From Panopea generosa (Eukaryota > Mollusca > Bivalvia > Adapedonta > Hiatellidae): a stretch of 64,000 bases of DNA. A model generated the notes under the pieces. The model was given only the letters and a program-made list of their open reading frames with translations, searched no databases and had not been told where the DNA came from. Position numbers and translations under genes: made by a program. The DNA is taken from positions 48,052,412 to 48,116,411 of the forward strand of contig CM055909.1 of the NCBI GenBank assembly GCA_029582155.1, written 5' to 3'. This document shows, one piece after another, positions 1,001 to 64,000 of this stretch; the stretch's first letter is position 1; each line of letters opens with the position of its first letter.

Positions 1001-1002
1001 GA

Positions 1003-37569: not shown

Positions 37570-37601
<32 letters not shown>

Positions 37602-37674: not shown

Positions 37675-37925
37675 AAGGCCATCTTTAAAAAAATATTTGT
37701 TTGCTGTGCTCCAACCCAGTATTTTTTATGTGGGTAGGTAGATAGCTAAATTTTTTTTGGCCAGAGTTTGATTTTGCATAGTTTTTTTTAAGAAAAATGG
37801 ACAGAAATCATAAAAAAATATTAAACGCTTTGAAAGTCAATAAAAATAATTGGGTAGTTGCAATTTTGAGCGAGTAGGTAGGAGCACCGTGCATGGCAAA
37901 CAATTTTTTTTTCAAGGATGGCCTA
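37675..37925. mobile_element. MITE, family 3, with GGCCATC inverted ends
   Basis: Left end AAGGCCATCTTTAAAAAAAT, right end AATTTTTTTTTCAAGGATGG then CCT, which are inverted repeats. Interior GGGTAGGTAGATAGCTAAAT and GCTTTGAAAGTCAATAAAAA shared with 42616-42797. Confidence 0.7.
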
Positions 37926-39882: not shown

Positions 39883-41338
39883 ATGTCCTCAGAAAAGGAG
39901 AGCCTTATAAAACAGGGAAATAATTCTAAAGGACAAAGTACTGATAACTTGATATCTCTCAAACATTTGGTGCTGTTTCCATCAGTCTTGTTTCAATGTA
40001 TTGGGGTAGGAATTATAGGATATGTTCTTAATGAATGGACACAGTACAAAATTAAAACTGTTTACTTTCCAGAAGGTTCAGTGAAGAACAACATCACTGC
40101 CTGTGGTAATAGGAATCACTCCAGTGAAACATATCAAAAATATAAAACAGTCCAACAGGAAACGTCACAATGGATGATCTATTACAGTTTGGCAATCCAA
40201 ATCACATCATGTGTGAGTAATATAATAATTCCCAGTTATACAGACACATATGGACGTAAACTTTTCTTTGTTCTATCAACATTCGGACAACTTATACGCG
40301 CATTTGTACTGGTTTTAGTAATTTATGCAAATGGAAACTTCATCTTTGTGGTGATAGCAAATGCTGCAGGACTTGCAGGAAGCAACTATGCATTGTTTTC
40401 TGGAACCTTTTCATTTGTGGCCGATGTTACTGTCACAGAAAAGCAGCGTGTGGTTGGCGTAGTTATAATGGAGGCCTTACTCTTGTTTTCTTCCATGCTC
40501 TCTAGCTTGCTCTCTGGTTATCTCATACAAACATTACGTTTTGGATTCTTAAACACAGCTTTGATCAGCACCGTCCTGATATCAATCTCATTCTTCATCA
40601 TAGTTTTTTTTTTACCAGAGACTTTGAGCAAGGAAAACAGATTACAAAAACGTCTTTTATCCAAACAGCAAAGCGCACATTTGATTTCTACATCAGCAAA
40701 GAATTCAAAGGCAAACGATTGTCTTACATATTACTTCTTTTATCATTTACTTTCCATATGCTCTCTAGTTCACACAGAACAACGCTGGAGATTTTATATT
40801 TTCTAGGACAGCCATTTTGCTGGGATCTGGCAGATATCAGTTATTTCTCATTTGCACGACACTCAGCTTTTACAGTTGTTGGCCTGGGCTCTGTGAAGCT
40901 CCTTCAAAAATGCATGTCCAATGAGGCAATAGCAGTACTAAGCACAATATCAAATGCAGGATCTTTCATATTGGAAGCCTTCGCGAAAACCACTTTAATG
41001 ATCTACATGGTACCCGTCGCGGGTGTTTTTTCGTTTCTGATCACTCCGATGATACGAGGAATAATGTCAAATATAACTTCAACAAACAAACAAGGTTCCA
41101 TGTTTGCCATATAGCTGTGGTAGAAAATATCGCCTGTTTGGCCGGATCAAGTACGCAGAATGCGATTTACTCTGCAACTTTATCAATAATGAATGGATTT
41201 GTGTTTCTTGTGTTGGCAGGGCTGTGTGCTATCAATCTTGTGTTACTACTTATGTATTGTTATGTTAAGCCCTATAACAATATTCATACCTCAAAGGGAG
41301 ATGATATTCACAATACTGAAAACTCCAGAGCTATTTAA
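39883..41338 (+). CDS. SLC46-like major facilitator transporter, gene 2 (two frameshifts)
   Basis: Tandem sister of gene 1, same orientation, 2.8 kb downstream, also intronless and 485 codons if register is restored. Starts MSSEKESLIKQGNNSKGQST. It keeps the glycosylated first loop (NNITACGNRNHS), PSYTDTYGRK, GTFSFVADVTVTEKQRVVG, FFLPETLSKEN and GQPFCWDLADIS. One-base deletions near 40637 (after the PETLSKEN segment) and near 41111 (GCCATATAG versus GCCAGTATAG in gene 1) break it into three frames, at sites where gene 1 is intact. Long stretches, such as the helix around AKTTLMIYMVPVAGVF, are nearly identical, suggesting recent duplication or gene conversion. SLC46 is inferred from loop architecture and motifs; the substrate cannot be told. 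Confidence 0.75.
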
Positions 41339-41390
41339 ATAAAAGTGCTTATACGGATACTTTTTTTTTCTTTTCCATAACAATACACAT

Positions 41391-41601
41391 GCAGTAGAGC
41401 TTCCATGGCTCAAACAGAATGGGACCAGACAAAATAGTCCAAGTAAATTGTTGTTCCAGCCAAGTTTTGCTCAACATCATACATGTACATGTATATACAT
41501 TGAAATAGGAATTCGCCTGGGACCAGATAAGTGGTTCGAGCTCTATATATATATGTGTGTGTTCCAGCCATCCTTGTTCCAGCCAAAGAAGTTCTATTGT
41601 A
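41391..41601. mobile_element. Pogo/Tigger-type MITE, short form (family 4)
   Basis: CAGTAGAGCTTCCATGGCTC at the left and CCAAAGAAGTTCTATTGTAT at the right are inverted ends. Subterminal GGGACCAGACAAAATAG and GGGACCAGATAAGTGGTTCG. About 210 bp. Confidence 0.65.
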
Positions 41602-42615
41602 TATACAAATTTTGACAATTCAAGTGTATTTAACCCAAAACTAATAAGTCAAGAACTTGATGCAGATTTGTTGTACTTTAAATGCTATGTATATGTATGT
41701 ATTTTCCTAGTTTTAAAAGTTCTGTAAATTGCTTTGATTTTATTTTAAAATTCAATTAACTCATAAACACTATGTCTTTTATAATGATAAGGTTTAATAC
41801 ACATTTTACAAGGGCTACAATGTCTTGCCCTCCGCTACAGACCTGTGATCAAACATCTCAAGTGGTTTACAAAATATGGAGTAGGCACCAAATATTTAAC
41901 CTATTTCTGACCTTCAACCTTTAAGTGTGACCTTTGATCTACAGACCTTGGTCTGGTATATTTATCCCTGTAAACATTCCAAACATAGCTTCACTCTGTG
42001 CACGCACCATCGTCAGATACCCACGTGTAATCCATTCAGATACTCTCCATTTATCACCCTTGGGATATTACACTACGGTTTGTGCCGTTTCTACCAAGCC
42101 ACAGCGCAGCGATATGATTGGTTCCTTCACGACTTCATGAAGGGACCATTACCCAATCACAACGTTAGTTTTATGTAAATGTTGTATAGTATTTTGTTCT
42201 GTTCTGTTCAAATAAAATGATGCAGAGCTAGCGTAATTTCCTATGGGTGATGTACGGAGAGTATTGGAATTGACACCCATGGGTGATGTGCATGCACCTG
42301 ATCAGTGGTAAACTATGCACCTGTACACAAACTATTAACACCATTGTGGATTATGACAGTTGATCGGAATACTGATGCTGCAGTTCGTTCAAAATGGAAA
42401 AGTCAACAAATCAAATTATTTAGATTTTGAAAACTGACGCATACAATAAAGCGGCAATATATAATTATATATTAAATATGTAAGTTTTATGCATATCTTG
42501 TTGTAATGTTTATTTATGACATCATATTGGGCATTGAATGCCAATACACTCCCTTTAAATCAGAACAATCCACATAAATCAAACCAGAAAAAAATTGTTG
42601 AATTACAATCTCTAA
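41602..42615. other. Unassigned region downstream of SLC46-like gene 2
   Basis: No gene recognised. The overlapping plus frames at 41927-42178 lack coding signs. CCATGGGTGATGTGCATG and CTATGGGTGATGTACGG (42240-42300) form a short direct repeat. Confidence 0.4.
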
Positions 42616-42797
42616 TAAGGCCATCCTTAAAAAAACATTCGTTTTGTGTTCCGACCTAGTATTTTTCATTTGGGTAGGTAGGTAGCTAAATTTATTTTTT
42701 TTGCCAAACTTTGATTTTTAATATCATTTTAAAGAAAAATTAGACAGAAAAAATGAAAACAAATTAAAAGCTTTGAAAGTCAATAAAAAATTTTTGG
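42616..42797. mobile_element. MITE, family 3, 3'-truncated copy
   Basis: AAGGCCATCCTTAAAAAAAC, GGGTAGGTAGGTAGCTAAAT and GCTTTGAAAGTCAATAAAAA match 37675-37860. The right end is missing; nearby 42800-42860 has a short inverted GGCAAATTTGTCAT / ATATTTGCCAAATGAC pair. Confidence 0.65.
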
Positions 42798-42962
42798 CAA
42801 ATTTGTCATATGACGAATATTTACTGATTTGGACCTCATATTTGCCAAATGACAAATTTATGATTATTTGGATATTTCCTTGACCTGCTATTTACAACTA
42901 TTTTTAATTTAGATTTTTAATACCACAGTATATGGTATTCATGTTATAATGTAGAACAAATT

Positions 42963-43206
42963 TAATAATATTTTTTTTAACGCATTTTTTCAACACATTT
43001 CAGGTTGTATATGGCATATCCAGTTTTACTGGTGGAGACCTCAGACTGACTCAGACTGAGTAGAATCATCCATCATCCTTACACAAGTAACTGGAAACTT
43101 TCTCACATAAAGTTTTTGGAGCAAGCGCGACTCGAACCTTCAACTTTAGCGGTGGGAGGTAAGTGATCTTGAGACGGTGTCTTAGAACACATGGCCACGG
43201 AGGAAC
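42963..43206 (-). repeat. SINE, family A
   Basis: CATTTCAGGTTGTATATGGC, ATATCCAGTTTTACTGGTGG, CAAGTAACTGGAAACTTTCT, then a head with GCGCGACTCGAACC and GTCTTAGAACACATGGCC. It sits just 3' of the NOM1-like exon 2. Confidence 0.8.
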
Positions 43207-43237
43207 CAATTTAATAATAAAGCTTATTGATTCTGAC

Positions 43238-43369
43238 CTGTAGTTTCTGCCTAGCTTTTCTTTTCTTTTTTCTTTTTTTTACCGACTCCAACTTCTTCAA
43301 TTTCGCTTCTTTATGCTCTTGTACTGCGGATTCTCGTTTTGCTTTGTCCACATCTTTTTTTGTCGGAAT
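43238..43369 (-). CDS. NOM1: NOM1-like exon 2
   Basis: 44 codons from IPTKKDVDKAKRE to RKARQKLQ, bounded by acceptor TTTGGCAG and donor GTCAGA. Open throughout, and phase 0 at both ends. Confidence 0.5.
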
Positions 43370-46208
43370 CTGCCAAATAAAAAAATTTTTAAAAAAATTA
43401 ACATGCTATTGGATTTGCATATCATTTATTCAATGATCATAACTGTAAATGATTATAAAAAAAAAAATGTTTTTCAAAATACTGTAGTGAGTGTACAATT
43501 TAAAAAAAAATCTTAAATGTTCATCCAAATTTTTTTTAACTGACAGAATGGAAAACAGTGCCGGGAGTGTTCAGATTGAACTCTTAATGCACCGTTTTCA
43601 AAGGCCTACTGTGATTGATGTGGGAAAACACGTATCTATGGAGTAAAGGGTTAGATCTCCTCAAAGTATTGCATACTTTTACAGTACCTTGTCCAAATAA
43701 AGCATTTGGGAGTGTGTTTGAAAATACTGTCAAACCCACCAGGAGTCAAACTGGAGAACTCTCGGTCTTGGAGGAACAAGCATGCTAACCACTAGACCTT
43801 CCCAACTACTATCGTGGTCTATTGCCACATATTCTTTGATCTACTTATTGGTATTTATAAATGACTCCAGTGGCATAACTAGCCCAAAAATGAGCAAGCC
43901 CATCATGTTCTGGGGGATCTGGGGGCGTGTACAACAAGAAAAGTTTGATTTTAAGAATGCATTTCATGTGTTTTGGGGTATTTTCTGAAGATATAACAAT
44001 ATATATTTGCAAGAATATGTGCAAACCAGAGCATTGTGTTACAAAGGCAGCTATGCCAAGGGGCTCCAAGCATAAATCTTATCAAAATTGGAATAACCTA
44101 CCAAGTTGTGTTAAAGCCAGTACCAGCCTAAATTTTATGGGTTGTCTGGCCACAGTAAAATTCTAAACAAGTCTTGTTTTTAATACTATAAACGTAGTTT
44201 ATTTTAAATAAAAATGTATAGCTTTGTTGTTTTTTAAACCGTATTTCAATTTTTACTATTTCTTTTGTTGTTCTCCGACAGGGCCTCCAAGTAATAATTA
44301 GAAATTTATTGTTTGGAGTAATATGTAGATGTAGATGAAAATGGTTTCTTCTTCTTCCAAGTAATTCATCCCTCAGGAACTGAGTATTCTCGAATTGAGT
44401 GTATGTACATGTGGAGTTGAGGACCAAATGTGTTTAGTTCAAATCACATATATACAGGTTAAAAACTGGGTTCTAGGATGATTACTACATGGCATCCCGC
44501 AACTTCATCTTGAAGGATAATAGGCTGGGAGTCGCGATCAGTTACAGAGTCTGATGCTACTCGGGAAGAAGGAATGTAGATGACAATTAACATTTGACTG
44601 TGGGATCGTGAATCTCGAAGTAGAATTGTTTCATCCATAATATTTGAACAACTGAAATAGAAAAGTCAGTGTTAACTTTACTTTCTGATACCAGAGCTAG
44701 AATTTAACTTTTTTGTGCACTGGCAATTTTGGCAAATGCCTAAAATTTCAACTGGCCAAATTTGAAACCAACTGGCCAAACCAATTTTCGCAGAAACTTG
44801 TAGTCCTAAATGTCTTAATAAACCCAAAATTAATTGTTTCAAAGCCTGCGTGTTATTGAATATGCATTATTAGCTTGTATTTATTTTTATAGACAATTGT
44901 ATCAAGCTTATTATATATGTTAACCCTTTACTTCATATATACGCCTTTTGAAACCTCTAATATAGACACCTTTGGACACCTAATATAGAAGGCTTTTGAA
45001 TTATTTAGTGAATTATGTTTATATTAACTGACAGAGTGGGAAAACAGTGCAGGAAGTGTTCAGATTTGCTCATTACGAGCAATCTGAACTCTTCCTGCAC
45101 TGTTTTCAAAAGCCTTCTGTGATTGGTGCGGGAAAATGTGTATCTATGGAGTAAAAGGTTAAGGTACAATTCAAAGCAGTACTTTACGAAACAAAATATT
45201 TTAAATTATAAAATTATCACTGTTATTTATTATACTACCATAAATAAATGCATACAATGATATATCATAAATAAACACTTTTAACTTAACAAAAATATGA
45301 ATCATGGATTCAACAATACCAAGTGCACAGAGACGGAGATTGAGACATACATACATTTCTATTTATAGAATTAATATAGCCAATGGCTGTTCCTTTTAAA
45401 ATTAGATCTAGCCAAGGATGATTGTTTAACATGTGTAAATGTTGAGCTGTCACTCCCATTTCATTACAGTATTGGCGGAAGGATTACTTCTCTTTTTCCT
45501 TCTTGGGACTCACTTTCATTCATTGGTTCAATGTAGAAAAAGATGTTATTTTATCAGCCATTTTAACAGCTGACAAAATATGTAAACAATAAATTTGACA
45601 GGTTTCAACTTTACTTTTATTTTATAGAGTGAATGAGGGATTGATCAAACTAGACGCAGTCTACTCATTATATGTGAGGGTTTTAACTTTACTTTCCTTT
45701 TTGCAGAATGGAATCGAAATAAAAACAAATTGACGCAGTCTTCTCATATAAATATTTAATACATGTCATTGACAATCGTGCTGCTAGGGGGTAATTTGGC
45801 ACGAGAAGCAAAAGAAATTGGGTAAAATTGACAAGAACTCGTTATTTTTACCAGGATAATACTTGTTTATTTTCAAAAATCTATAAAATGGATACACTAA
45901 GTAATTTTCTCAACTTGAAATCAACTCGCAAAAAATGCCAGCTTCTAGCGAGTGCTTAAATTCGAGCCGTGTGATACATGTAAATATTGCAATTTCAAAA
46001 CTCATACCGGTTTCCTTAAACTGAAGGCAAGTTTTCTGGACTTTTTCAGCTGTCTTTCTTCTTTTCTTCTTTCTTTCCTGCTCGGCTGTTTCTTTATGCC
46101 TTTGCTGTGAGCGCGTCCGGATCCAGATTTAACCAGATCTTTAACTTCAGACCGGAATTTCTTCAAATTTGGCTGATCTTTAATTTGCTGTTTCTTTCTT
46201 TTAGTCAT
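43238..46208 (-). CDS. NOM1: NOM1-like nucleolar protein, first two exons only
   Basis: Exon 1 46008-46208 (67 codons) joins in phase 0 to exon 2 43238-43369 (44 codons). The protein begins MTKRKKQQIKDQPNLKKFRS, has PSRKERRKEERQLKKSRKLA, and exon 2 reads IPTKKDVDKAKRESAVQEHK then a Lys/Arg-rich end. The RKExRKEERxLKKxRK block followed by IPT and a basic coiled segment resembles the N-terminus of NOM1, a nucleolar MIF4G/MA3 protein of 18S rRNA maturation. I found no exon for MIF4G or MA3, so the gene is partial here. Start 46208 was chosen for its AAAATGA context; an in-frame ATG at 46250 is also possible. Basic low-complexity sequence makes the family call moderate; donor GTATGA and acceptor TTTGGCAG are good. 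Confidence 0.55.
43540..43655. mobile_element. piggyBac-like MITE, right-half fragment
   Basis: CTGACAGAATGGAAAACAGT, GTTCAGATTGAACTC (hairpin loop region deleted), TTCAAAGGCCTACTGTGATT and TCTATGGAGTAAAGGGTTAG. Matches 15906-16157; the left end is lost. Confidence 0.65.
43715..43805 (-). repeat. tRNA-like SINE head fragment
   Basis: CCAGGAGTCAAACTGGAGAA and CATGCTAACCACTAGACC read as B- and A-box-like sequences on the minus strand. Confidence 0.4.
43990..44166 (+). pseudogene. Possible LINE C-terminal remnant
   Basis: A plus-strand frame reads SYQNWNNLPSCVKASTSLNF, resembling the WNxLPxxVxxAxSLxxF end common to jockey/CR1-class polymerases. Only this short motif is visible. Confidence 0.35.
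44167..44921. other. NOM1-like intron 1, part
   Basis: 44490-44640 on the minus strand loosely resembles a LINE C-terminus (STFLLPE then PSLLSFKMKLR, with stops). Otherwise nothing recognised. Confidence 0.3.
44922..45162. mobile_element. piggyBac-like MITE, complete copy 2
   Basis: TTAACCCTTTACTTCATATA to CTATGGAGTAAAAGGTTAA, bounded by TTAA. The internal hairpin at 45040-45107 has the same arms as in copy 1 (GAAAACAGTGCAGGAAGTGT), with a few changes at the loop. Confidence 0.75.
45163..46007. other. NOM1-like intron 1, part
   Basis: AT-rich; no exon or repeat recognised. TTTTAACTTTACTTT..TTTT near 45605 and 45675 is a short direct repeat. Confidence 0.4.
46008..46208 (-). CDS. NOM1: NOM1-like exon 1
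   Basis: 67 codons, strongly basic, ending SLRKP before donor GTATGA. The frame closes with TGA immediately inside the intron. Confidence 0.55.
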
Positions 46209-47974
46209 TTTGGAAATATGCTGTAATGTTTCTATATATATTTCGAACAATAACTTGTAAATTTAGCAATAACCATTTAGTTCGTGTTGCCTCATGGGCG
46301 CAGCCATTTTGATCCAATTCCGAGTAAGAGGGACGCTTACAATAATGTCTATCTGAACGTCGGTAGTGTTAACTTCGACGGCGGTGATAAAGACGGTGTC
46401 GACGTTATACAAATTTATTTATAGTCGGTTACATATATATATATAATACAGACAACATTAGCTATGTTTAATAGAAAAATCCTAATAATAGTACTGTCCC
46501 CACTATCATAAGTCTTTAGAATTAAATTCTGTTGAACGTTTATATTTAGGTAGTGCGACATATATTGCTCGTCTCTAAGAGGTATTTCTTATTTTGTGTC
46601 TCCCGAGCTAGGGTTATGGACAGCAAACCAGATATACAAAATATAAACAAAAGCTGTCCATAAAACGCCTCATTTAATCATGCTAATGTTTAGGTTGAAC
46701 TATATAATCATCGATACTATAAGCAAACTTATTTGTGCTATAAGCTGTTTTGTTTGTTCTAATATAATGGTTTTACAAAAAGTAAACAACCATATTTGCA
46801 CTCAATTTAAGTATAAACAGATTTGCATAGCACCATTAGTGTCTTGGACCTCAGGAGTGGATTAGGATAAGCCAATACTTATAATAAGTGATCTACGACT
46901 GAATATGGTTAATGAATTCTTCAACGAAGTTGGAGTCCGTGTGGTTCCTGCTAAGAATTGAATCACTGTCAATCTCTGGAGAGGGGTAGGAATCCTCCGA
47001 ATGGGTGTCATGTTCACTATTGTGGTTAAATAAACAACCCCTGTGTGGTTCCAGGGAGCAATGAGTGATGGCAAGAATAGGATCACTGTGGCTTATGCAT
47101 GTCAAATGAAGCGATAAATTGAGTAATATGATAGAATTTGATGAAACTCTGCAGTTCTGCAGGTATCAACGTTCTAGGTTCATATTCTGCATATTCATTT
47201 GTTGATGTATTTTTTAAATCTGTATGTTAATTTGTTGTTTTTGTACATGTAGAGTGAACCTGGAATATTCCTTCTTGTTGGTGTTGAATAACCTAAAAAA
47301 AACCGTAAAACCCTATTCGTTCGTTCAATGAAGTTAGAAGTTAAGAAAAATCATCTATTTCAATTAAAAATGATAATAAAATAAGTAATTATAAGCACCG
47401 AATCCATAAAGTAAGTTAGTGATAAGTTATAAGCAACTAGAAACTAAATAAGTTCACCGAAAAGCCATATATCAGTCATAGAGCAACTAATCACCAATTT
47501 ATTTTTAATAATCCTCTTTTCCTGCTTGCCAAAATTACAAGGGGTAACACAATTTTAAACTACCTGTAACTCAGTTTTAAGGAGTATCGCCAGGTCTTTT
47601 CATCAGCAAAATTTAATGCAAAATAATATATTTTCAGTATGTATTTCTTCTTAAATTCTTGATCGATTTCAATTATTCAAAAAATATAAATACAGAATAC
47701 ATTGAATTTCAATAATAAGTGAAAAAGTTAAAAGCTACTGACAAGTTTTTCCAGCGAAAAATATTTTGTAAATTTAATCGCTATCACCAACTCATTTCAA
47801 CTGTCTGTATCTCTTTCATTTGATAATGGATTCTAAATGTATTTTCAGTTTCAGAAACAAGATAATGAAGCTTTTTAAAATTATAAACATTTTATAAATC
47901 GGTTAATGAATAAATAAGTAAGTATAAGAACCACCAACTACTCTTTCTTATATACCTAATCTTAACACTACCAC
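46209..47974. other. NOM1-like upstream region and unassigned DNA
   Basis: 46290-46420 is comparatively CpG-rich (GACGTCGG-type strings, TCGACGGCGG) and is the likely NOM1-like promoter and 5' UTR. Farther up, a 70-codon minus frame at 46893-47105 with an acidic segment (NSEHDTHSEDSYPSPEIDSD) may be a terminal exon of something or chance. No other gene seen. Confidence 0.35.
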
Positions 47975-48970
47975 CAGGTTTAAAACTGGTCCTTTCTTGC
48001 AGACTTCTGGTCTCGGATGAATTATTTTCGTAGCATCAGTAAAAACTATGCCAAAGAGTCAACAGTGGCAATATGGACATTTATATAGAATACAAATAGT
48101 AGAGGTCCTAAGACTCAGCCTTGGGGTATTCCAGAGTTGACATTTCACCAATCTGATAGTTCCACATTGATCCCCTTTTGTTGGTACCTGTTGCTTCGGA
48201 AGCTATCTATTCAAATTATTTTTTTTTTTAATACTTTGATATTATATGCTTCAAGTTTGTTTCAATAGCCTTTTGTGCGGGTGAGTGAAAAGGTGTTTTG
48301 GAAATCCGTGTTTATGCAATCTATTGATGCTGCGCTGTCTGACTGTTCTGTTCCTATGTTTATGTTGAGTAGTTGAATTGATGTTGAACGGCCAGAGATA
48401 AATCCAAATTTAGAGAAAAGTGGCTCTCCATGTATTTAAGTATATATTCCCTTATTATTGCCTCATTTGTTTTGCATATATAGATGTTGGTCCATAGTAT
48501 TTGTTGATGGACCTCTCTATTTAATTATAGTTAAAACTTATTTATTTTACTTTGATTGTGAAACAAGTTCTTACAAATTAGGCAAATCACACTCAAAGTC
48601 TTCCTGGTTAGAACCAGTACTAAGCATATGCGGAAAAGTGTCTTGCTCAAGGACACCACACATAACCGTGGCGGAGGATCGAACGTATGACCCTCTGATC
48701 ATGGGATCGGTGCTCTACCACTGGACCACACACTCCACTACCGTATTTAATTCTTCATTCCATGCATCTTATAAGGACATTTTCTTTGGTTGATTGGAAA
48801 AGATACTGAAGGGGTAGGATATTGAATCTGATGTTTCTTTCAAGAAGTTTGGATGTATTTTATTAAATCCTGATAACTTATCAATTGTTTAACCTTATTA
48901 ATTATATTTTTTTACCATATCTGGATTTACTACGAGTGGTTCCAAATGACACTTTGCATTTTTCTTTGTT
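47975..48970 (-). pseudogene. LINE reverse transcriptase remnant C, split by a SINE
   Basis: On the minus strand, 5' to 3': DKLSGFNKIHPNFLKETSDS (near 48830), then the nested SINE, then EAIIREYILKYMESHFS, FISGRSTSIQLLNI, IDCINTDFQNTFSL, LSDW, SGIPQG(stop)VLGPLLFVFYIN and FTDATKIIHPRP. The last is a decayed FADDTKI catalytic box. Frames shift and stops occur, so it is dead. Different family from fragments A and B (GIPQGxVLGPLLFxxYIN type). Confidence 0.75.
48524..48738 (-). repeat. SINE, family C, nested in LINE remnant C
   Basis: AACAAGTTCTTACAAATTAG, GTTAGAACCAGTACTAAGCA, TCTTGCTCAAGGACACC, head with GAGGATCGAACGTATGACC and GTGCTCTACCACTGGACC. LINE coding similarity resumes on both sides. 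Confidence 0.75.
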
Positions 48971-49830
48971 ATTTCTTATTCAACATAAATAATTGTAAGA
49001 AATTTATAAGTAAAACATATCATGTAAAATGCATTTAAGAAAATCTGTGAAATACAACAGGTTGCCATGGAAAGATACCATGGAGTAACATTTACAGAAA
49101 CATAGGGAAACCTGTTTTAAAATATTACAAAATCGTATTTCTTTCTTTATAAATAATGTTAGTTCAAGTTCTTAGCTATTCACAAAATATGTTTAATGCT
49201 TGCTTGAAACCCTACTGCAAATCAGTTTTTAGATGATATTCAAATTTTTAAAATCATTTTGTAAGATGTGCGATAGTTCCAATATACATGTATGTCAATT
49301 TTAGTAATACAACTTTATCTTAATTTTAGGCAGAAGTCAAGATGAGCAGTATTTTTTAATGCAAATTAATGCATTGTAGTGATCCTGTCTTTTTATTACA
49401 TGACTTTTGTATGTATAGGTCAGAGGTGCCTCAGTGGCCGGTCTAGTTTTGTCTCTCTTAATTCTTATATAGAATAGCATACAATTTCTTTTATAAACTG
49501 TAATGTATAAGTGTACATATGATGAAACGTTGATAAACTATTAAACTAGGCATTGTTATAAAAAACTTCATGTAAGTGTCCAAATAAATAACACTAGCTG
49601 CAAAGTTATTTGCCAACCTTAATGAAGGGAAACAAATCTGATTAGACTATACTACTTTTAGAAGCAAAAGTTATTTTCCATTAATTCAAACCTCTCTTGT
49701 GTAACAGTATTTTGTTAGTATAATAATCACAACGCTCTTAAATATCTTGATGGAAATTAAAAATCTGCACATAAGTCTATGGTGACATAAAAAGAAATTC
49801 CAAGCTACCATTTGAGCTATGAAGTCAGGG
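48971..49830. other. Unassigned AT-rich region
   Basis: Nothing recognised; 49420-49445 (GAGGTGCCTCAGTGGCCGGT) is vaguely tRNA-head-like. Confidence 0.35.
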
Positions 49831-50035
49831 GTCATATTCATCAACCATTCTTAAGAATATTCTTCGACTTGAACTCAAGAATGAATTTTGCAAGCATGCA
49901 AGGACACTTTATATATAGTCAAATAAACTCTTGCAATTATTCTATCTGCCACGGCAAGTAAGATATCAGAGGTTGAAATTTGGATTTTCAAGTTAAAGTC
50001 TAAGAATATCCCCAAGAACGGTTGGTGAATATGAC
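49831..50035. mobile_element. MITE, family 5, with GTCATATTCA inverted ends
   Basis: Left GTCATATTCATCAACCATTC, right (minus strand) GTCATATTCACCAACCGTTC: inverted ends of about 36 bp with few mismatches, extending through ATATTCTT. About 205 bp, single copy in the window, no coding capacity. Confidence 0.7.
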
Positions 50036-50129
50036 ACGTGATTTGAACCTCGTGGGACTAGTTAGCTGCATGAAGATGTGTATGATGGACACCCAACTTA
50101 GCGTGAAGCAAGACTGACCAGGTTTGCAA

Positions 50130-50345
50130 GTGTCGGGGCTTTTTTCCTCGAAATTTGGAAAAAAACCCAGAATGATTGAGGTTTAAGGCTTTAGGAAAAT
50201 AAAGAGTAACAGCTTTTGAGTTATTATGCAAGATATTTTTGGTCTCAAATGGGAGTAAAACATATTTTTTTTAATATGGAAGTAGCCAAATTTTGGCCTC
50301 TGTTTAATAAGGTAAAAAAATACCTGAGCATGTAATTTTTTTTTC
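50130..50345. repeat. Dispersed repeat related to 37507-37680
   Basis: GGGGCTTTTTTCCTCGAAAT and GGCTTTAGGAAAATAAAGAG resemble the region around the poly-G tract at 37.5 kb. Boundaries uncertain. Confidence 0.4.
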
Positions 50346-50689
50346 TGGTCTTATAAAATATTTAACACTCAATACCAGGTTGGAAACAACTGCTTCTTTA
50401 ATTACCACAACTTAAATCATATGGAGTAGTTGGTAGCTTTTGTCCGCAAATCTTCATATTAGTTATTTTTGTTTTCGGTATCATGAAGAAGAAAAAAAGA
50501 CAGTACAAGTATTATGCATATAAAAATAGTTTATTACATTGGTTACTTTTGTCATGGTGCAGTACATTCACACGTTTATCACATAACTAGCGGTTACAGC
50601 AGTGTAATAAGCTGGTGAGATATATTTAGTATCAACCTAGTGTAATATCACTCACCACTATTTGATACTAAAATATTTTTAGCTTAATT
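50346..50689. other. Unassigned spacer
   Basis: Nothing recognised. Confidence 0.4.
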
Positions 50690-50855
50690 ACAAAAAAAGC
50701 TCAGAGCCTGCATTATTCGCTCTCAAGTCAGAATCCGGTGTAGAACTGTAATACCAAGCATTGTTTCTGCAAGGCCATCGGGTCGAATGAGTGATCCAAC
50801 CCACAACCCCTGGTGTGAGCGGCCAATACTTTACCCATTGCACTACTGATTCATT
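50690..50855 (-). repeat. SINE, family B
   Basis: AAAGCTCAGAGCCTGCATTA, GTAGAACTGTAATACCAAGC, GCCATCGGGTCGAATGAGTG, CAACCCCTGGTGTGAGCGGC: a diverged minus-strand copy of 9410-9575. Confidence 0.7.
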
Positions 50856-51034
50856 GCTAGATTAAATATATAAAGCAACACTACACATGTATATTATTTT
50901 ATATTGTGTGTATAAATGTATGTATATTTAATAATTATATAAATAAACATGTATCATCAATAAATTCCTGCAAGTCGTTAATCACAGTAAAAATGGCATC
51001 TCATCAATGTAAACATATGTAACTCTTTGCTTAA
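50856..51034. other. AT-rich spacer
   Basis: Nothing recognised. Confidence 0.4.
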
Positions 51035-51300
51035 AGGGAATATATCAGGATTTTTCCAAATTTTTAATTAGACATAAAAAATTTTCTGCAATATATCATG
51101 CCTATATATACTCACCGACACCGCATTGCCAAAAGGATATTTATTTAAACATGTCAAAATAATATACTGAAGTGATTTCTTACTTGGGTTTCGTGCCTAC
51201 CTTAAGACTAAAATAGGTTTTCCCACTTAAAAATTGCAACATATCTGCAATGTATAAAATGAGTCACTCGATTTCATTTTGATCCATTATATAGGTTCAC
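51035..51300. repeat. Dispersed repeat shared with 34594-34880
   Basis: TATCAGGATTTTTCCAAATT, TATATATACTCACCGACACC, AACATGTCAAAATAATATAC, AATGAGTCACTCGATTTCAT. Same order as the other copy. Confidence 0.55.
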
Positions 51301-52183
51301 AGTAACAATTGTTTCATCTTGGCAAGAGTTTGAATGATGATGCAAAAGTGGTCAAATCTAAAAATCAATTTTGTCAAGTTTTGGTGGATTTGGCGTACCA
51401 AACCATCCAGATTTTATCTATTAATGATAATGAGATGCTCTATCCAATTCAATGTTAGTTTTATATTTTAAGGCTTTTATAGCATTATTCACCAAATATA
51501 CTCCCTTTAAACACACAAGAATGGCTGTACAGCTTTGTCTGCTGATTCTGCACATTAGATAATTCTTGGCATGATGTATTGCACAATATACACAAGAGCA
51601 CTCTAAGTGGGTGCAGATGCTCGTCCATTAAGTAGATCAAGGTCAGTGATTTAAACCTTTTTAAAGTGATGGTGATAAGTTTACACAACTAATTCCTATT
51701 GTTTAAATAAAATAGAATAAAAAAGTACCGGTAATATTTTAAACCCCAAGCTAAACAAAATACTTTAACCTTACATGTAGGTTAATACCCAAAAATACAG
51801 AATCAAAGATTTTTTTTTAAACAAGACAAGCAAATACATATCAATACAAAATAAATAAGAAAAAGAATCTCACATACCGATAGCATGTAATATCAAACAT
51901 AAATCAAAGATAGATGTAAAACTAGCATTCACGCATTTGTGATTCTCTCAAACCAAAAAAAACAAAAAACAAAATATTTTAAATGACGGTAAAAAAAATA
52001 AATGGAACTTTTTAACTATATCAAATCACAGCACTGCGTAACATTTCATTTTTAGAAACATTCTAATTTACCAACAACCACTATATGACATGACAATATG
52101 CATGATCTTTCTAAAGAGTGCATTGCTATGTTGTTTGTTTAGTGTACATATACCATTTAGATTTGGTGTTATATCACAGAAAG
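51301..52183. other. Unassigned AT-rich region
   Basis: A 67-codon minus frame (51485-51688) has no recognisable domain; nothing else seen. Confidence 0.4.
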
Positions 52184-52428
52184 GTCCTCTGTAGCCTAGT
52201 GGTATAAGGCACTATCATGTAATGACCTCATACCTCTCACTGCTGCAGTCATGGGTTCGAGCCCAGTTCAGTTAAATAACTTTATGAGAAAGTCTGCCAG
52301 TTACTTACAGTAGGACAGTCGCTCTACTTCCATTTATTCTGACCTCTTCCTCTATCCATAAAACTAGATATGCCATTATGTAACCTGTCATGTCATAATG
52401 GTATTAGATCCCATTAAAAATATATTGT
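52184..52428 (+). repeat. SINE, family A, plus strand
   Basis: Head CCTCTGTAGCCTAGTGGTAT, GGGTTCGAGCCCAG, then AGTCTGCCAGTTACTTACAG, CTAGATATGCCATTATGTAA and TTAGATCCCATTAAAAA. It ends 90 bases before the start of the large duplication. Confidence 0.75.
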
Positions 52429-53967
52429 CTACTGTGGCAATAGAGCAAAATGCCATGAAAGGAGCTAAATGAAGGTTTGCTCTTTCCAAAACAGTAAAAA
52501 TGAAATTTATACCGAGGTTTCAGCAAGTTAATGATATTCTAACCTGTCTAATAAGATTATCAAAATTACTATTCTTAATGGTTTCAAACAATTCTAATAT
52601 TATGAAAGTTTTCATATGCAAATCTCTACATATGATCCTCATATAAATCTCATATGATAATGATATGTAGAACAATTGCCTGTTTATGTAAAGTTTTTAT
52701 ATCTATGTTGGTTTTTTTTTTCTCGTCATCTGTCCTTTACTACATGGATGAAATTGACACAATTGCGCTTAATGGTAGGACTTTTAAAAGAGAAACAACA
52801 TGTACATGTACCCAAAAGCCTATAAAGTAAATTAACGTTGGCCAGAGAGTTTCATAAAAAGCAAAATATGAAATACTATTAACAATCAAGAATGAAATAC
52901 ATAGCTGCAATTGGCTACATTTTTTTGTTAATTTCAAAAAGTGCATAGTAAAGACATATAAATTTCTAAACTATTCAGGTAATCTTATACAGGTAGTTCC
53001 ACGATTGGAACTTTCATTTGGAACTAGAGTTGCCTATAATATACTGTATTGGGTTTCCATCCATGTGCAAAATTTTAACCAATGACGTTATAGTTATTGA
53101 TACAAATCTACTGGCATCCGACAAATATGCACAATGCTCAACGTGAGAACCAATCAACACATGACCAGCAATAAACTAAGCTTGTGTTACTGGTCATAGG
53201 TCAACTGATCTCACCCGAGCTGTTTCTCTCGTTGGTTCACTTACCATACTCTACATGTAGTTCTAGTGAAAGTATCCGTCTGTGTGATTACACACAAAAA
53301 TGTTTTAGGAATGTTGCCGTTAATATCACAGACATGCCTAAGAAGAGCGAGATTCAAAATGCTATGAAGGAATTAACTGCCATTTTCTTAAAACAATGTA
53401 AGAGTTGTATTCCTACATCAACACATCAATTGTTTGTGCAGAAATGTGCAGTTCTTTATGTAAAATTGAAAAATCAGAACTTGATTCAAGTCAGTGAAAT
53501 CTACATGTATATTGATTGATTGATTGATTGATTGAATATTTAGCGTCATTTTTATGCCATGGAGGGCTAACAGACGATAAGTTAACGTAACCACTGTTTC
53601 CTGGGATTAACCAGTACTCTAGCACACCCCATCTCCGCAAGTAACTGATAACTTTCCACATGTATACAGATGGTATTTTTCATTCTTTTAAACAGGTCAC
53701 AGAAGACTTAAGAAATACCTTGTTTGTTTTTGTTTTTTTTTGTTATTTAAGAGGTTTTCCAAAATGAAATAAAAAAACGAGAAGTCAAAAGCCAAGAAAA
53801 GCTGAGAAAAAATGAAATTTAGCCATGAAAAAAAAAAAAGATTTTTTCATATACCCTACCCTGTACGTCTTGAAATTTGGCCATGAAATCGGGAATGAAA
53901 CTGTTGTTGCATTTTACAGGAAAAAGTTCAATTTTCTCAAAATGTAAATCAGTAAGACTCCTTGATT

Positions 53968-56900
53968 CTACGTCGACACATCAAATTTGTCATATAGAAC
54001 ATTCTTGTTGTCTCGTTTTCGCTTGAAGAAATATACTGCAGAGAGAATCAAAACAACCAGCAGCAAGCCGCCCAGTATGATGGAAACAATCCAAGCTGAA
54101 ATATATACATGTAGATAATTAATAGAACAATATTTCACAATATTTCTTTTTTGAATGGGGTTCAACGTCATTTTCAACACATTTCAGGTTATATATGGCA
54201 TATCCAGTTTTACTGGTGAAGGAAGACCTCAGACTAAGTCAGACTGAGTAGAACCACTGTCTGCAAGTAACTGGACACTTTCTCACATAAAGTTTTTGGA
54301 GCAAGCGGGACTCGAACCTACGACCTTAGCGGTGAGAGGTAAGTGATTTTGAGACGACGCCTTAGACCACTCGTCCACGGAGGACTCTTCACAATATTTC
54401 ACATGATCTTCAATTATCTTAATAACTGTTTAAAAATTTATAGATACAGTCACAGCTGTGTAAGTGATCACCTCTTTTAAGCAACCACCTGTCTTAAGCA
54501 ACTGTATTTACTATTTCCCATTTCTATGCTTTCACAGTAAATTAACCTGTATTGAGCAACAACCTGTTTTAAAAGGCCACTTTTGCTTTTTACCTTGACT
54601 GGCTGCTTAAAACAGGGTTAAAGGCAAAGCAAATTTATCTTAAGCAAGGAATAGTCCCCTGCATAACAGTTTAAAATGCATTTATAATACATGTATTTAC
54701 TCAATTTTACAATCATGTAAGTAATCATTTTAACTGTTGTGAATAACTCCTGAGTCTGTTTCTTAAATAAGACCAGTACTGAGTTGTTTTATTGAGAGAC
54801 CGTGAGGTTGAGTCTGGGATTAAACCTGTGACTTCTTATAGAACTGTCGGCCTCCTACGACACCACAGCCCAGTCTTACACAGTCATGTATTATTAATTT
54901 GAACCCATTTTTGATATCGTAAAATCAATGAGCAAAAATGATTACCTTTTGGGATAATGCAGGTTTCAGAAAACTGTTGTTGTATGTTGCTAAGTGTTGG
55001 GTTCAACAAATTTTTAGAAACATCATGACGATGTCTACTTGAGGCAGTATTGTAAGTGCTGACACACTGGAGTATCATGCCACAGACACAAGGTATGATC
55101 ACCCATCTAGTCATTTTATACTGACACCAGGTTGACCAGACCTAGAACAATCCTCTAAATGCTGAATGTCAAGCAAGGAAGCTTCTAGTACCCTTTTTTT
55201 AAGCCTTTGGTATGACTGGCTGGGGATCAAACCTACAACGTTCTGCATGCGAGGTGGACACTTTATCCCTAGACTTACGCTGTGGTGCAGGTTTTAAACA
55301 TGAAAACTATTCTAATGCATAAATAAACAAGATACCTAAATTGAGGTTTGAGGCACCCCTAACACACAGCTGTGTGCAATGTAATGTATGGTGTTTAGTA
55401 TCATGTTCAGCACGCTTTATGTAATATTAACAGTGCCTGCTTGAAAAGTTTCTTCTTAAACTTATTTATTTTTCATCGACTAAAACAAGTTCTTACAAAT
55501 TAGACAAATCACGCCCCAAGTCTTCCAATAGAAACATTACTAAGCATGTGCAGATAATGTGTCTAGCTCAAGGACACTATGCATAGCCGTGACTGAGGAT
55601 CAAACCCAGGATCCTTGGCCTGAAGCTCCACCGCTGGACAATGCTCTACACATACAGTAAGTATTCCGAATGCTGAAGTGTACTAAAGGATTATTCCACA
55701 GACAAATGCTACGATGCAATGCCTTGTCACATCACCCTGTCCTCAAAATAATCTTGCCCCTGGGTGTCTAAGTCCAGAAAGGCCCATAACTGTGCCAAAA
55801 TGCAATCCAAAGTTATGGTTCTTGTCTGTGTGTGTTCCATTGATGATGGTGAACACACATGCAAAGTTTCATTCACATCAAATGAGTGGTTGCATAGATA
55901 TCTTAAACTTAAACTTAAACGTAAAAGTTTATACTGGGTGTCTTCAGACGCCGCAGACAACGACGCCGGGGTCATGACAATAGCTCTCCTTGGACTATGT
56001 CCCGGCGAACTAAAAAGTGATAAGTGAGTCATTGGTAAGACCAGGCTAGGGATAAAACCCAAAACCTTCAGCGTGCTAAGTGAGATTCTACACATCAACC
56101 CCCACCTAAATGTATATAAACTTGCTTTTAAACTCACCATTTGACAGAACCGAATGACTGCCATTACTTGGACTTGGTGAGGGTATGCCACACTCGCCAG
56201 GCCAGTCTGTTGGAACAGCAGATTTGGTAAGCCGTTCAAAGTCAGGCAATGAACAATTCAATGAACAATCTGTAACAGACAAGTGTTCCTTCATTACTAC
56301 AACATAAATGAATAGCGCAAATCAATTTCTACGGCTCCATTTTTATTTTGTTTAACATTATTCATTTTAATTATCTAAAATTAAACTTGTTCCATTTAAA
56401 TGTTACATCTGCAGCTTAATCAATTGAAGTTCTGGCTCAAACTCACCATCTCACTTCTCTAAAACATATACAAACAAGAAAATATCGGTGAAACCGATGG
56501 ATGCTCCCCAAGTGAGTGTTTGACTCTGTACCATATTCCCTTAGTGCTGATGGCTACTAGGTTGAAAAATACCAAACTGCATAGCAGGAACAATATGTGG
56601 CTCTGCACTAGACAGAACTCATTCGTAAATCACTGAACTGGAACAAAATGACAATATGTGCATATCCTAGCTAGTTATTAAAAATTAAAACCAGAGGTTG
56701 TAGCGAAATAGCATCATAAAGACAATATGCACATTTTCACTTGGAAATCATGCATCCTGGCAAGTTTCATAAAATTCAAACCAGAGGCTGTAGAGAAATA
56801 GAGCAGAGAAGAGTTTGTTCACAGACAGAATGAAAGGGTCACAACTCCATGAAAAATCATCGAACTGGAACACAAACATAGTAAATTTCATAAAACTCCA

Positions 56901-59900
56901 ACCTGAGAATGTAGAGAAATAGTGCGGACAATAATTTGGTCACAGAAACAATGAAAGGGCCATCACTCTGTGAAAATCATCGAACCGGAGCACAAAGACA
57001 ATATGTGCATCTCCACTTGGAAGTGATGCATCCTAGCAAGTTTCATAAAATTTCAACATGGGGTTGTAAAGAAATAGCGCGGACAAGAATTTGGTAACAG
57101 ACAAAATCAAAGGGGCATAACTCAGTGAAAAATCATCAAACCGAAACATAAAGGTTATATACGTATCTGCACTTGGTAGTGATGCATCCTAGCAAGTTTC
57201 ATAAAAATTCCAACCTGAGGTTGTAGAGAAATAGTGCGGACAAGAATTTGGTCACAGATTCAATTAAAGGGCCATAACTCCGTGAAAAATCATCGAACCA
57301 GAATACAAAGATATTATGCGCATCTCCACTTGGAAGTGATGCATCCTAGCAAGTTTCATAAAATTTCAACATGGGGTTGTAGAGAAATAGTGAGGAGAAG
57401 AATTTGGTAACAGACAAAATCAAAGGGCCATAACTCCGTGAAACATCATCGGACGAAAACATAAAAATTATATGCGCATCTGCACTTGGTAATGATGCAT
57501 CCTAGCAAGTTTCATAAAATTCCAACCTGAGGTTGTAGAGAAATAGTGCGGACAAGAATTTGGTCACAGATTCATTAAAGGGCCATAACTCCGTGAAAAT
57601 TCATCGAACCAGAACACAAAGATATTATGCGCATCTCCACTTGGTAGTGATGCATCCTAGCAAGTTTCATAAAATTCCACGATTGGGTTGTTGAGAAATA
57701 GCCCCTAACAAGAATTTGGTCACAGACAGAATCAAAGGGCCATAACTCTGTGAAAAATCATCGAACCGGAACAAAAAGATATTATGCACATCTCCACTTG
57801 GTAGTGATGCATCCTAGCAAGTTTCTTAAAATTCCAACCAGAGGTTGTAGAGAAATAGCCCGGACAAGAATTTGGTGACGGACACACGCACGCGCGCACA
57901 TCAAAGCGGCTACTATATGCTTCCCCCTTTTTGGGGAGCATAACAAGAAAATATCGGTTCCACCAATGGATGTTCCCCAAGTGAGTGTTTGACTCTGTAC
58001 CGGATACTTGATTGAAAAAAAACAAATTGCATTGCAGGAACAATATGTGGCTCTGCACTTCACAGAACTCATTCGCAAATTATTGAACCAGACAAAAATG
58101 ACAATATGCGCAGATCCTAGCTAGTTTTACAGAATTTAAACCAGAGGTTGAAGCGAAATAGTGTCATGACGACAATATGCACATCTCCACTTGGTAATGA
58201 TGAATCCTAGAAAGTTTCATAAAATTCCAACCACAGGTTGTAGTGAAATAGAGCGGAGAAGAATTTGGTCATAGGCTGAATCAAAGGGCCATAACTCCAT
58301 GAAAAATCATCGAACCAGAACACAAACATAGCAAGTTTCATAAAATTCCAACCTGAGGTTGTAGAGAAATAGCAGACAATAATTTGGTCACAGACTCAAT
58401 GAAAGGGCCATAAATCCATGAAAAATCATCGAACCGGAACACAGACAATATGTGCATCTGCACTTGGTAATGATGCATCCTAGCAAGTTTCATAAAATTC
58501 CAACATGGGGTTGTAGAGAAAGAGTGCAGACAAGAATTTGGTCAGAGACAGAATCCAAGGGCCATAACTCTGTGAAAAACATCAAACCGAAACACAACGA
58601 CAATATGCGCTTCTCCACTTGGTAATGATGCATCCTAGCAAGTTTCACAAAATTCCAACATGGGGTTGTAGAGAAATAGCGCAGACAAGAATTTGGTCAC
58701 AGACTCAATAAAAGGACCATAACTCCGTGAAAAATATCCAACCAGAACACATAGACAATATGCACATCTGCACTTGGTAATGATGCATCCTAACAAGTTT
58801 CATAAAATTCCAAAGTGGGGTTGTAGAGAAATAGCGTGGACAAGAATTTGGTCACAAACAGAATCAAAGGGCCATAACTCATCGAACTGTAACACAAAGA
58901 CAATATGCGCATCTGCACTTGGTAATGATGCATCCTAGCAAGTTTCATAAAATTCCAACCAGAGGTTGTAAAGAAATAGCTCGGACAGGAACTTGGGGAG
59001 GCACGGACAGACGCACAGACGGACAGACGAAGCGGCGACTTTATGCTTCCCCCATTTGGGGAAGCATAATAACTGAATTAAATATAATAATTAATTAAAA
59101 TTAAAATAAATATTTTTAAATTCTGAAAGTTTTAGTCCAATGCTAATCCAAACTGTGAAAACAACAGAAAAATAACTTATTATTTTGTCAGATATTACTA
59201 TTAATAATCAATATATAACAAGGACAGCTCATCCTTTATTCGGTAAACATTTACATTTCATACATGTATCTTTGATAATTAATGTACATGTAGTAATAAA
59301 ATCTACATGCACATGATTTTAAGTGGATCCAATGGGTGGAGCTGGAGATCAAACCCACAAACCTCTGGAGTGAGCAGCCAGCACTTTACAACTGTAGTGG
59401 AGAGATGCCTTAAGTTTCCGTTGTTAATTTTTTCGTTAAACCAGCCTACATTAAGGTTAAACAATCCTGTATTGAAGACCGGAGTCACAGTATAAAAGCC
59501 AACAGCACTGAAAAATGACCACTTACACTTAATTCTTTGTACTCACTGGGAGCATACCACCAGTGGAGGGTTTTTTAAAATTTCAGAAGTCATAGATAAC
59601 AGAATTTGTTGAAACTTGGCAGGTCTGTTCTTGAATGTATGATCTTTATGTCATGGGACTTTGGAAATAAGTTGTACTTTATAAGTGACACATTCAAATA
59701 ATCTTTTTTGGAAACTGTTATAAAATTCAAATTTTCCTCCAGTTGTGATTGACAGCCAACCTTAGTTCATGACCCGACTCTTCAGCCAACCACAGTCCAG
59801 CTTCTATGGGGATAAGGCACAGTGCATTCCATTCTTTTAACATATGGCTATATGAATGCTTTATTGAAAATTGTCATAATTAAAGATTGAATTCAGGGTA

Positions 59901-62900
59901 TAAAGTATAAATAAAAAAAAAAAGAATACTTTGTCATTATTCCCGTCAAGGAATATCATGTTGTTCTGAAAAAAAAATTTGTGAGACCCTTTTACATAAT
60001 GTCCCTTCTGTAACATAACTAGGCCCAACATTGACCTATAGCTAACATTTAAGCAGTTTTAAAGATAAAAAGAAAAAACATACTGATCAATTAAATTCTT
60101 TGTGGGAATTACAGAGTGCGAATTTGAACATACTTCAAGTTAAGTTTTACGGCATTTTTGTTATCTAAATTATTACTGAAAGGAGAAGCAATTAAATAAT
60201 ATTATACATTGTTTAAGAAATTAAGATCAACAATGTATTTTATTTAAACTGATTCAAACTTGTTTAATCAAAGCGCAATCAGTATGTATTCATAACATAC
60301 ATTGACCATTCACTTTATCTGTTGTTAATCAGTAGCTCACACAGCTATATATCCAAACCACATGTTTACGTTTACAAATCTTAAGATATGAGCAAGCAGG
60401 CCAGTACATGTAGTTTAGCCACAATAAATGCTTAATAGCTTATTGGTTGTTTTTTTGAAATAGTGAACCCTGGCCTTTAAGGTTAAATAAACCTTTATCA
60501 ATACAATTCAAATCTTTTATTTCATAATAGAGGCCACAGGCCTAAAAGGCATATACTTATTTACAAACTCTTAAGTAGTGTCAAAATCTAAAATGCAATT
60601 TGGCATACAATTTATCATAAAATATTTTATCGTGGTTTCGCGGTGGCCAGTTTTTATTTTCAGCTTGTGACTAGAACACTGAAAGCGAGCAAGAGATTTT
60701 TTTATACAAGGTTAAAGGAAGGACTTATATAGAAGGATAGGAAACTTGCATTCAATGACAAAATATTGATGAAATACCAAAAGAAGGATTCACAATTTTG
60801 TAATCAAAAGTACTTCAACAATTTTAAACACAAATTTCTGGGAATGGTACTGTTTTGATGAGAATTTCATTCTGCTATGTAAGAATTTTGATTTGTGTTC
60901 CTTAGATGAAAGGAACTCAACAATATCAAATACAAGATATTGTGAGATTTTACGTGAATACACAAGCGTTCACAAAATCTCAATCAGTTACCTTACTTTC
61001 TTTATACAAGTCCTTGGTTAAACCAAATATTTCCATTCTCAGTGTTATCAAGCTAACACGTGTTTTCCAAAATCGTCTACTAATAAACGGTTGGACTGTA
61101 TATCAATTATATCTAATTCATTATCAGTTTCTAATAATAAAAAATAGCCCTTCAATTTAAACTCAACGCTATTAGTGTTAAAATATTAAAAATATATATC
61201 TGAAGTAATTTCAACAAAAAAATAATAAAAATAAGTTTGTGTTTACGATCCGATAAGATACCTGCGATATATTAATACCTGTCAACCGCTTCGTTGCTCG
61301 ATCATGTGATCACTGGATAATAACAGTTTGCATATGGCTTCCGTGTTTGGCGCGTGTCAGCATTTAATGAAGCACTTGGGATTATTACAAACTGTTAATA
61401 GTCAATGCTGGTATGAAACAATCACTTAAACTATCCTTTAAACCACCATGAGGTAATGGTTATAATAGTTTGTTATAATCAAGGCTAATTGGTGAGTAAA
61501 AGATGAACAATTATCAAATCAAAACATGGCGACAATCTATTGTTTGGTTGTCATTTGATCATTCGCACAGATTTTCAAGTTTTATATCATGACTTTCCCC
61601 CCCCTGCTGAAAAAATGTGAGCCAATCAAAAACCGCATTATAACGGAATTGGCGTTATATTGGACCACGTTATAACAAGACCGCAGTGTATTAACTTACT
61701 TGATAATTTCAGGGGAAAGGCTGTGTCACTTTCGGTTTCGTTTTTGTAAAACAAGTTAACATAAAAGTGTCCTGCAGGATTCTCATGCAGTTCTGCGATA
61801 ACGCAGGAGGCATACTGTGGACTTTTGCCATCATACAACTCCAGGGCACTGAGGAGAGCAGCTACAGTCGTGTCATGCTGTAATGTTAAAGCGAAACAGC
61901 AATTAGTTTATACTAATTTATTTTAGCTCATTTGTGACGAAAGCTCAGAGCTTATATGAACCACCCTCGAGTCTGCTTCCTGGGTAGAACCAGTATTGAG
62001 TATTGTTTTATGAGAGGCATCGGGTCGACTAGGGGATCGAACCCCCGCAGCCTCTGGCGTGAGCAGCCAACACTCTATCCATTAGACTATCGCCCCGCTT
62101 AAACAGCAATAAGTATTATTAATTAACACATGTTAATAAATAGTAATACTCAATTACCATGATTTATACTCAATTAATTCATAACTTGCTTCTATTGTGC
62201 CTTTAATTTAGTAACATTAATTGGCAGTAATTTTATATATTATATAATTACATTAAGTAATCAAATATCATTTATCAAGTTTAGCTATCTAGATTTGAAT
62301 CAATCACAGTATAAAGTAAAACTTTGTTGGCTTGAACATGGATGGCTGAAACACCATATACAGTACAAACCACTTATCTTGTCTCGGCCGAATTCTTATT
62401 TCGATGTACATACATGTACATGTTTGGTAAGATGTTGAACAATACTTGGCTTGAAAAACCCTTAACAAGAATTATTTTGTCCAGACCCGTTAAGTGTAAG
62501 TTCTAATATAAATACATATTTTTAGTCGAGCATAGTCCTGTTTATGTCGTTTTAACCAAGTTTTACAGTGTTGATCACCAAAATGATCAGACATGACCGA
62601 GACTACTTTATCCTTGAATTAAATATTTTTTATGTATTTTATATAATATGCAAAAAGAAACAAATCAAACAATAAAATATATTGTAAAAACTGTTATATA
62701 TATCATGTCATTTTTAAAAATCATTGCATAAAATAAACCATACACTACAGTATTAAATATCAATCAAATTTGGAAGGCGTACGACTATTTATCAAAGCCC
62801 GTCTATCAGTACTTGAAGTGTTTTGATTAATCAAAGTTATATGGGCTTTCAGTGAACAGTGGTTGCCACAAACATATGGGGTTCCATCACAAGTTTCCTG

Positions 62901-63141
62901 GTGAGAAATACCGGAGTCTCTCAGTATGAAAGCTGGGTGCTCTCCATTTCCACAGCAAGACTGTGGTAATCTTTACCGAATAAAGAGACTTGAATAGGCT
63001 ATGAAGTATGTCTTATCTAGAAATGATCACAACCTGTATCAAATTTACTTACCCCAGAGTACATGAACATCTTGGTACGCACACCAGTAGCATTGCGACT
63101 CTTTAACTCCATATTCTCGATAAACTGACTCAATAAAGGCC
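53968..63141 (-). CDS. ACP2: Second copy of acid phosphatase exons 8-11 (5' part beyond window)
   Basis: Exons 63053-63141 (exon 8), 61700-61877 (exon 9, catalytic HD), 56138-56296 (exon 10) and 53968-54095 (exon 11 with membrane helix and YDKF tail). The splice sites and reading frame are the same as in the first copy. The only coding difference seen is in exon 9, NLFYKNET here versus NLFLQNET. The version here is the likelier true sequence because the family has an aromatic residue followed by a basic one before NET. Partial only because the window ends. Confidence 0.9.
56475..57944. mobile_element. Composite pearl/Helitron-like element, duplicate of 3958-5427
   Basis: Same order of ~160-bp units and the same TTTTTGGGGAGCATAA tail. 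Confidence 0.7.
57945..59069. mobile_element. Composite pearl/Helitron-like element, duplicate of 5428-6549
   Basis: Same as the first copy but with a cleaner consensus (CAAGTTTCATAAAATTCC, CTCGGACAGG, ATTTGGGGAAGCAT), where copy 1 lacks single bases. Confidence 0.7.
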
Positions 63142-63305
63142 CTAAAGTAGAGACAAGATAATTTTCCACAGATCAAAGCAATAAACAATTAATTTATAAT
63201 TTTGTTAATCCTCCTTAACAACATCATAGTCTATCACAAAACCAACATCTCTCTGTTATACACTAAAGTAAAAGCATGGAAATCCCTACCTGCCCAACCA
63301 TTCAG

Positions 63306-64000
63306 AGTGTTGTTTTTTTTTTGAATAGGATTTAACACCATTTTAAACACATTTCAAGTTATATATGGCATATCCAGTTTTACTGGTGGAGGAAACCTCA
63401 GACAGAGTCAGACGTACATGTATTTCAGGTTATATATGACATATCCAGTTTTACTGGTGGAGGAAGACCTCAGACAGAGTCAGACGTACATGTATTTCAG
63501 GTTATATATGACATATCCAGTTTTACTGGTGGAGGAAGACCTCAGACAGAGTCAGACGTACATGTATTTCAGGTTATATGTGACATATCCAGTTTTACTG
63601 GTGGAGGAAGACCTCAGACAGAGTCAGACGTACATGTATTTCAGGTTATATGTGACATATCCAGTTTTACTGGTGGAGGAAGACCTCAGACAGAGTCAGA
63701 CGTACATGTATTTCAGGTTATATGTGACATATCCAGTTTTACTGGTGGAGGAAGACCTCAGACTGAGTCAGACGTACATGTATTTCAGGTTATATGTGAC
63801 ATATCCAGTTTTACTGGTGGAGGAAGACCTCAGACTGAGTCAGACGTACATGTATTTCAGGTTATATGTGACATATCCAGTTTTACTGGTGGAGGAAGAC
63901 CTCAGACAGAGTCAGACGTACATGTATTTCAGGTTATATGTGACATATCCAGTTTTACTGGTGGAGGAAGACCTCAGACAGAGTCAGACGTACATGTATT
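63306..64000. repeat. 72-bp minisatellite, second copy, cut by window end
   Basis: Starts in the same SINE 3' end as 10792. The first nine or so units keep the same order of variants as at 10.8-11.5 kb (three TATATATG units, then TATATGTG units; GACTGAG in the sixth and seventh). Confidence 0.95.

Follow-up and report, generated by a model that had tools for sequence, protein, structure and literature searches.

In this study, a window of 64,000 nucleotides of the bivalve Panopea generosa (the whole stretch of DNA that was analysed) was located at C16:48052412-48116411 of its genome (1.474 Gb, 39 contigs). A further 40 kb was added on each side, and the resulting 144 kb was aligned to itself. 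Positions are those of the window, negative coordinates lying to the left of its position 1, and features are on the plus strand unless another strand is given. The window contains a scaffold gap of 500 N (33299-33798), and no further stretch of N is present in the 144 kb. To its left lies the end of contig 1 and to its right the start of contig 2; both carry a histidine acid phosphatase gene and two MFS-type transporter genes, in stretches designated copy A and copy B, respectively.

The acid phosphatase gene, which is prostatic acid phosphatase-like, occupies 1451-21953 of copy A on the minus strand. For three of its exons (20501-20683, 18394-18738 and 9117-9383), PDB matches provide support. 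The remaining ones were recognised by eye: 21837-21953, 17294-17539, 14984-15145, 10497-10649 and a 3' exon at 1451-1666, which is presumed to be transmembrane. The exon at 21837-21953 contains the RHGDRSP motif. Nine exon queries yielded Pfam His_Phos_2 three times, never reaching the curated cut-off, and in two of these cases the query was one exon taken from A and from B; a PDB search with the candidate exons 14984-15145 and 63020-63172 gave no match at E 1. All eight peptide words taken from these exons recur in copy B in the same order, spanning 21.9 kb to 1.6 kb in A and 74.5 kb (outside the window) to 54.1 kb in B. Between the exons of copy A lies a 72-bp tandem array of 52.7 units (10831-14629), whose partner begins at 63351. 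The units of this array are 98% alike and include ordered unit variants; the first nine stand in the same register in A and B, with 3 edits at register 0 and at least 8 at all 43 other registers tried.

The first MFS-type gene was found at 35399-37055 in copy B, where its frame is broken twice, and at -17152..-15493 in copy A, where it is open for 518 codons. The second, at 39679-41335 in copy B, is likewise broken twice; its counterpart in copy A (-12853..-11192) is open for 487 codons. Both codon numbers run from stop to stop or as far as the excerpt reaches. Pfam MFS_1 was matched by one open frame of each gene. A third member, with an open stretch of 492 codons, is located upstream at C16:48024098-48025943, and the three form a tandem family whose members are 88-90% alike.

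Several repeats accompany these genes. Two arrays of about 156-bp units, with similar sequence around them, occupy 4362-5367 and 5692-6477. Two dispersed repeats of about 250-300 bp were also observed. The one at 1625-1870 has relatives 79-93% alike on at least 18 of the 39 contigs, and the one at about 31173-31461 has relatives 87-91% alike on many contigs among the matches listed. Broken open frames on the minus strand at 23734-25569 presumably resemble the reverse transcriptase of a retroelement; a Pfam search at 0.001 with two of these frames found nothing. Rfam returned no match in the window at the gathering threshold.

The self-alignment of the 144 kb showed that copy A extends from -18756 to 33298 (52,055 bp; C16:48033656-48085709), its part within the window (1-33298) being the terminal 33.3 kb of contig 1. 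Copy B extends from 33799 to 85848 (52,050 bp; C16:48086210-48138259), and its part within the window (33799-64000) is the start of contig 2. The copies are collinear over 52,122 columns and 99.666% identical, with 35 substitutions and 106 indel events. The last base of copy A stands directly before the 500 N and the first base of copy B directly after them, and at the outer edges of both copies the contig continues without a gap. Three stretches of the overlap were searched in the whole genome, and each had two full-length places among the matches listed, both at this locus; 40 candidates were scored per search, and weaker copies may be missed. The arrangement is a dovetail: the end of contig 1 equals the start of contig 2, and the two contigs were scaffolded but not merged.

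The original prediction, which concerned the window, had claimed that its end repeats its start collinearly, with single-base and mostly homopolymer indels and no substitutions noticed in the parts compared by eye, and it had proposed a base-by-base count. The observation was borne out. BLASTN of the window against itself aligned 1-11483 with 52518-64000 end to end in one alignment of 11,500 columns, with 0 mismatches, 33 gap openings and 34 gap bases (32 one-base indels and one two-base indel). Thirty of the 33 indels fall within runs of at least two equal bases, and the missing bases are divided between the copies, at 17 sites in the first and 16 in the second. Another BLAST scoring presented the same pair as 3 mismatches and 31 gap openings. 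The unit edit distance and the indel-only distance are both 34, however, so that no substitution is needed between the two stretches. The limits of the predicted feature, in contrast, were rejected: 52518 merely pairs with the first base of the window and 64000 is where the window stops, and the pair in the chromosome is the 52-kb one described above. The lack of substitutions applies to the stretch compared and not to the whole overlap, whose 35 substitutions all lie to the left of that stretch.

These substitutions are confined to A -16486..-6105 (B 36063-46413), within the first 12.7 kb of the overlap, and the last 39 kb contains none. A core of 5.8 kb (A -16486..-10764, B 36063-41757) holds 30 of them, corresponding to about 0.52%, and 21 of these 30 are transitions. 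Several multi-base indels also occur in this core. The substitutions at 43272 and 43273 amount to a single base displaced next to a T run, and the alignment chosen may account for them. If substitutions were independent and evenly spread, the probability of finding all 35 in the first 12.7 kb would be 3e-22, and zero substitutions in 11.5 kb at 0.5% divergence would have a probability of about 1e-25. This distribution indicates that the first 12.7 kb probably mixes two haplotypes. In PMC6880199, heterozygosity values of 0.51-2.02% are reported for bivalves, in contrast to the absence of substitutions from the last 39 kb. The two MFS genes offer 13 substitution sites for comparison, and copy B agrees with the other gene at 8 of them and copy A at 5; of the 7 sites at which gene 1 was compared with the third paralog, which lies upstream, 4 agreed with B, 2 with A and 1 with neither copy. 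The differing alleles thus fall both ways relative to the paralogs, which suggests changes in both copies, the pattern expected of two haplotypes, and not errors confined to B. The first 12.7 kb may therefore join two haplotypes (heterotype), and the rest would represent a single haplotype (homotype).

The indels have a direction that depends on their position in the overlap. Of the 24 indels in the first 8.3 kb, at the contig end of B, 22 have the bases missing from copy B; of the 30 in the last 18.6 kb, at the contig end of A, 28 have them missing from copy A (Fisher p = 8.6e-11, for limits chosen after the indel list had been viewed). Eight equal bins, counted as A lacks/B lacks, gave 2/18, 6/11, 2/3, 10/5, 8/11, 10/1, 9/0 and 9/1, the same trend as the end regions set afterwards. 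The idea that both copies are equally noisy throughout was therefore rejected, as the odd copy switches along the overlap. The loss of bases in each copy near its own contig end fits a thin consensus of deletion-prone long reads, and the indels near the contig ends are probably consensus deletions. The reading frames show this for the four MFS breaks of copy B only, and in the last 18.6 kb of copy A it is the direction that is known, with no independent vote on which copy is correct. Judged from the letters, consensus quality appears to differ between the copies, as in homotype false duplication.

A separate pattern was found in copy A at 5498-11381, which holds 31 of the 33 differences within the window pair; the first 5,490 bases hold the other 2. 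The indels of 5490-11483 are balanced, with bases lacking in A at 16 and in B at 15. A vote of repeat units within the window decided 15 of the 33 sites, and all 15 favoured B (6476 weakly), although the voting units are not independent because units of both copies vote. At the other 18 sites the repeats gave no clear vote. Two of these 18 fall within an exon of the acid phosphatase gene. The peptide there is NLFYKNET in B and NLFLQNET in A, and the YYRNET of solved prostatic acid phosphatases speaks for B. In total, repeats or protein voted for B at 17 of the 33 sites and for A at none, and 16 of the 17 lie in 5498-11381. A model of thin contig ends fails for the A differences at 5.5-11.4 kb, because this stretch is 22-28 kb from the end of contig 1. 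Nor does simple end-thinning explain why the indels of 5490-11483 are balanced although A is the odd copy at every site there that could be voted on.

We are highly confident that the locus represents a false duplication by unmerged contig overlap, in which one and the same 52 kb was written at the end of contig 1 and again at the start of contig 2; the animal would then possess only one copy. The original prediction had proposed that a single sequence was assembled two times over from noisy long reads. This is still the best reading, and the flanks outside the window make it firmer, since they show that the copies are 52 kb long and abut the 500 N exactly. Points against it are the balanced indels of 5490-11483 and the substitutions of the first 12.7 kb, by which A and B do not derive entirely from one molecule. 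The assembler would have left the overlapping ends of the two contigs unmerged, probably because their consensuses disagreed. The disagreement may have consisted of a thin, deletion-rich consensus at each contig end together with the haplotype difference of about 0.5% near the start of contig 2. The scaffolder would then have set both contigs end to end with a spacer of 500 N, and the true chromosome would consist of the left flank, one 52-kb stretch and the right flank. The predicted true order, 33799-52517 followed by 1-33298, is correct as the content of a single true sequence, because 33799-52517 copies the 18.7 kb to the left of the window. It does not follow that the contig order of the scaffold is wrong; a wrong order was rejected as unneeded, since the flanks show a plain overlap. 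A literature search found no publication combining a bivalve genome assembly, 3D-DNA and 500 Ns.

A genuine tandem duplication of 52 kb, very young and including the acid phosphatase gene and the two MFS transporters, with the contig break exactly on the junction, is the better of two alternatives and is nevertheless very improbable. The contigs would then be left flank plus unit and unit plus right flank, and the indels would be base-call errors on top. A tandem duplication does produce the order left-unit-unit-right, and a repeat collapsed in the assembly graph might yield two contigs that both include the unit. The third MFS paralog just upstream, clearly older and 90% identical to gene 1, indicates in addition that this transporter family does duplicate in tandem. 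However, the junction between the units is absent from contiguous sequence and is represented by the 500 N alone. A real pair also gives no reason for bases to be missing near each contig end in the copy that ends there, and its divergence would have to be uneven, with 35 substitutions in the first 12.7 kb against 0 in 39 kb. The latter figure would require an extremely young event. The second alternative, in which all 52 kb would be two haplotypes placed next to each other (a purely heterotype false duplication), accords with the 30 core substitutions, their 21 transitions, the multi-base indels and the alleles that match paralogs on both sides, but the absence of substitutions from the other 39 kb means that the greater part of the overlap represents either a single haplotype or a stretch in which the two are identical, and we give this reading almost no credence.

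For users of the assembly, it matters that 52 kb is counted twice, although the duplication is biologically ordinary and most likely an artefact. With the extra copy, the assembly gains a histidine acid phosphatase gene and two MFS genes, the latter two frame-broken. Because the contigs were most likely joined by a placeholder gap instead of being merged, these extra genes are probably not real. Of MFS genes the 144 kb has five copies, whereas three are likely to exist, and the additional genes could pass for an expansion of a gene family. That bases are missing from opposite copies at the two contig ends is a sign of unmerged overlap that can be read from the assembly itself, and it could be used without reads at other scaffold gaps.

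The overlap of P. generosa most likely belongs to a known class of artefact, homotype/heterotype false duplication. Signs of false duplication given in the relevant passages of PMC9516828 and PMC8081667 include a gap between the copies, a contig boundary and differing consensus quality. As in the homotype false duplications described in those passages (Vertebrate Genomes Project, Nature 2021, PMC8081667; Genome Biology 2022, PMC9516828), the copies here end at contig boundaries and both abut a gap. The same passages also offer a parallel for an assembly gap that separates the copies, here the only N run in 144 kb, and for unequal consensus quality, here judged from sequence. Freedom from haplotype-specific differences, a further trait of the homotype class, may apply to the last 39 kb with its 0 substitutions, but less evidently to the first 12.7 kb with its 35. 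The homotype cases in that part of PMC8081667 are about as long as the sequence reads, whereas the present overlap measures 52 kb. The legend of Extended Data Fig. 6c of PMC8081667 describes a contig boundary at which heterotype and homotype duplication are combined, and the present overlap likewise has a substitution-bearing and a substitution-free part; compared with the case in that legend, the second haplotype in the 12.7 kb here is one that we infer. The overlap also resembles a recent segmental duplication in the assembly, as do the false segmental duplications by mis-assembly in the portion of PMC2864568 (Genome Biology 2010) on this subject. That portion concerns divergent chromosomes and polymorphic regions, whereas the overlap in P. 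generosa is mostly without divergence.
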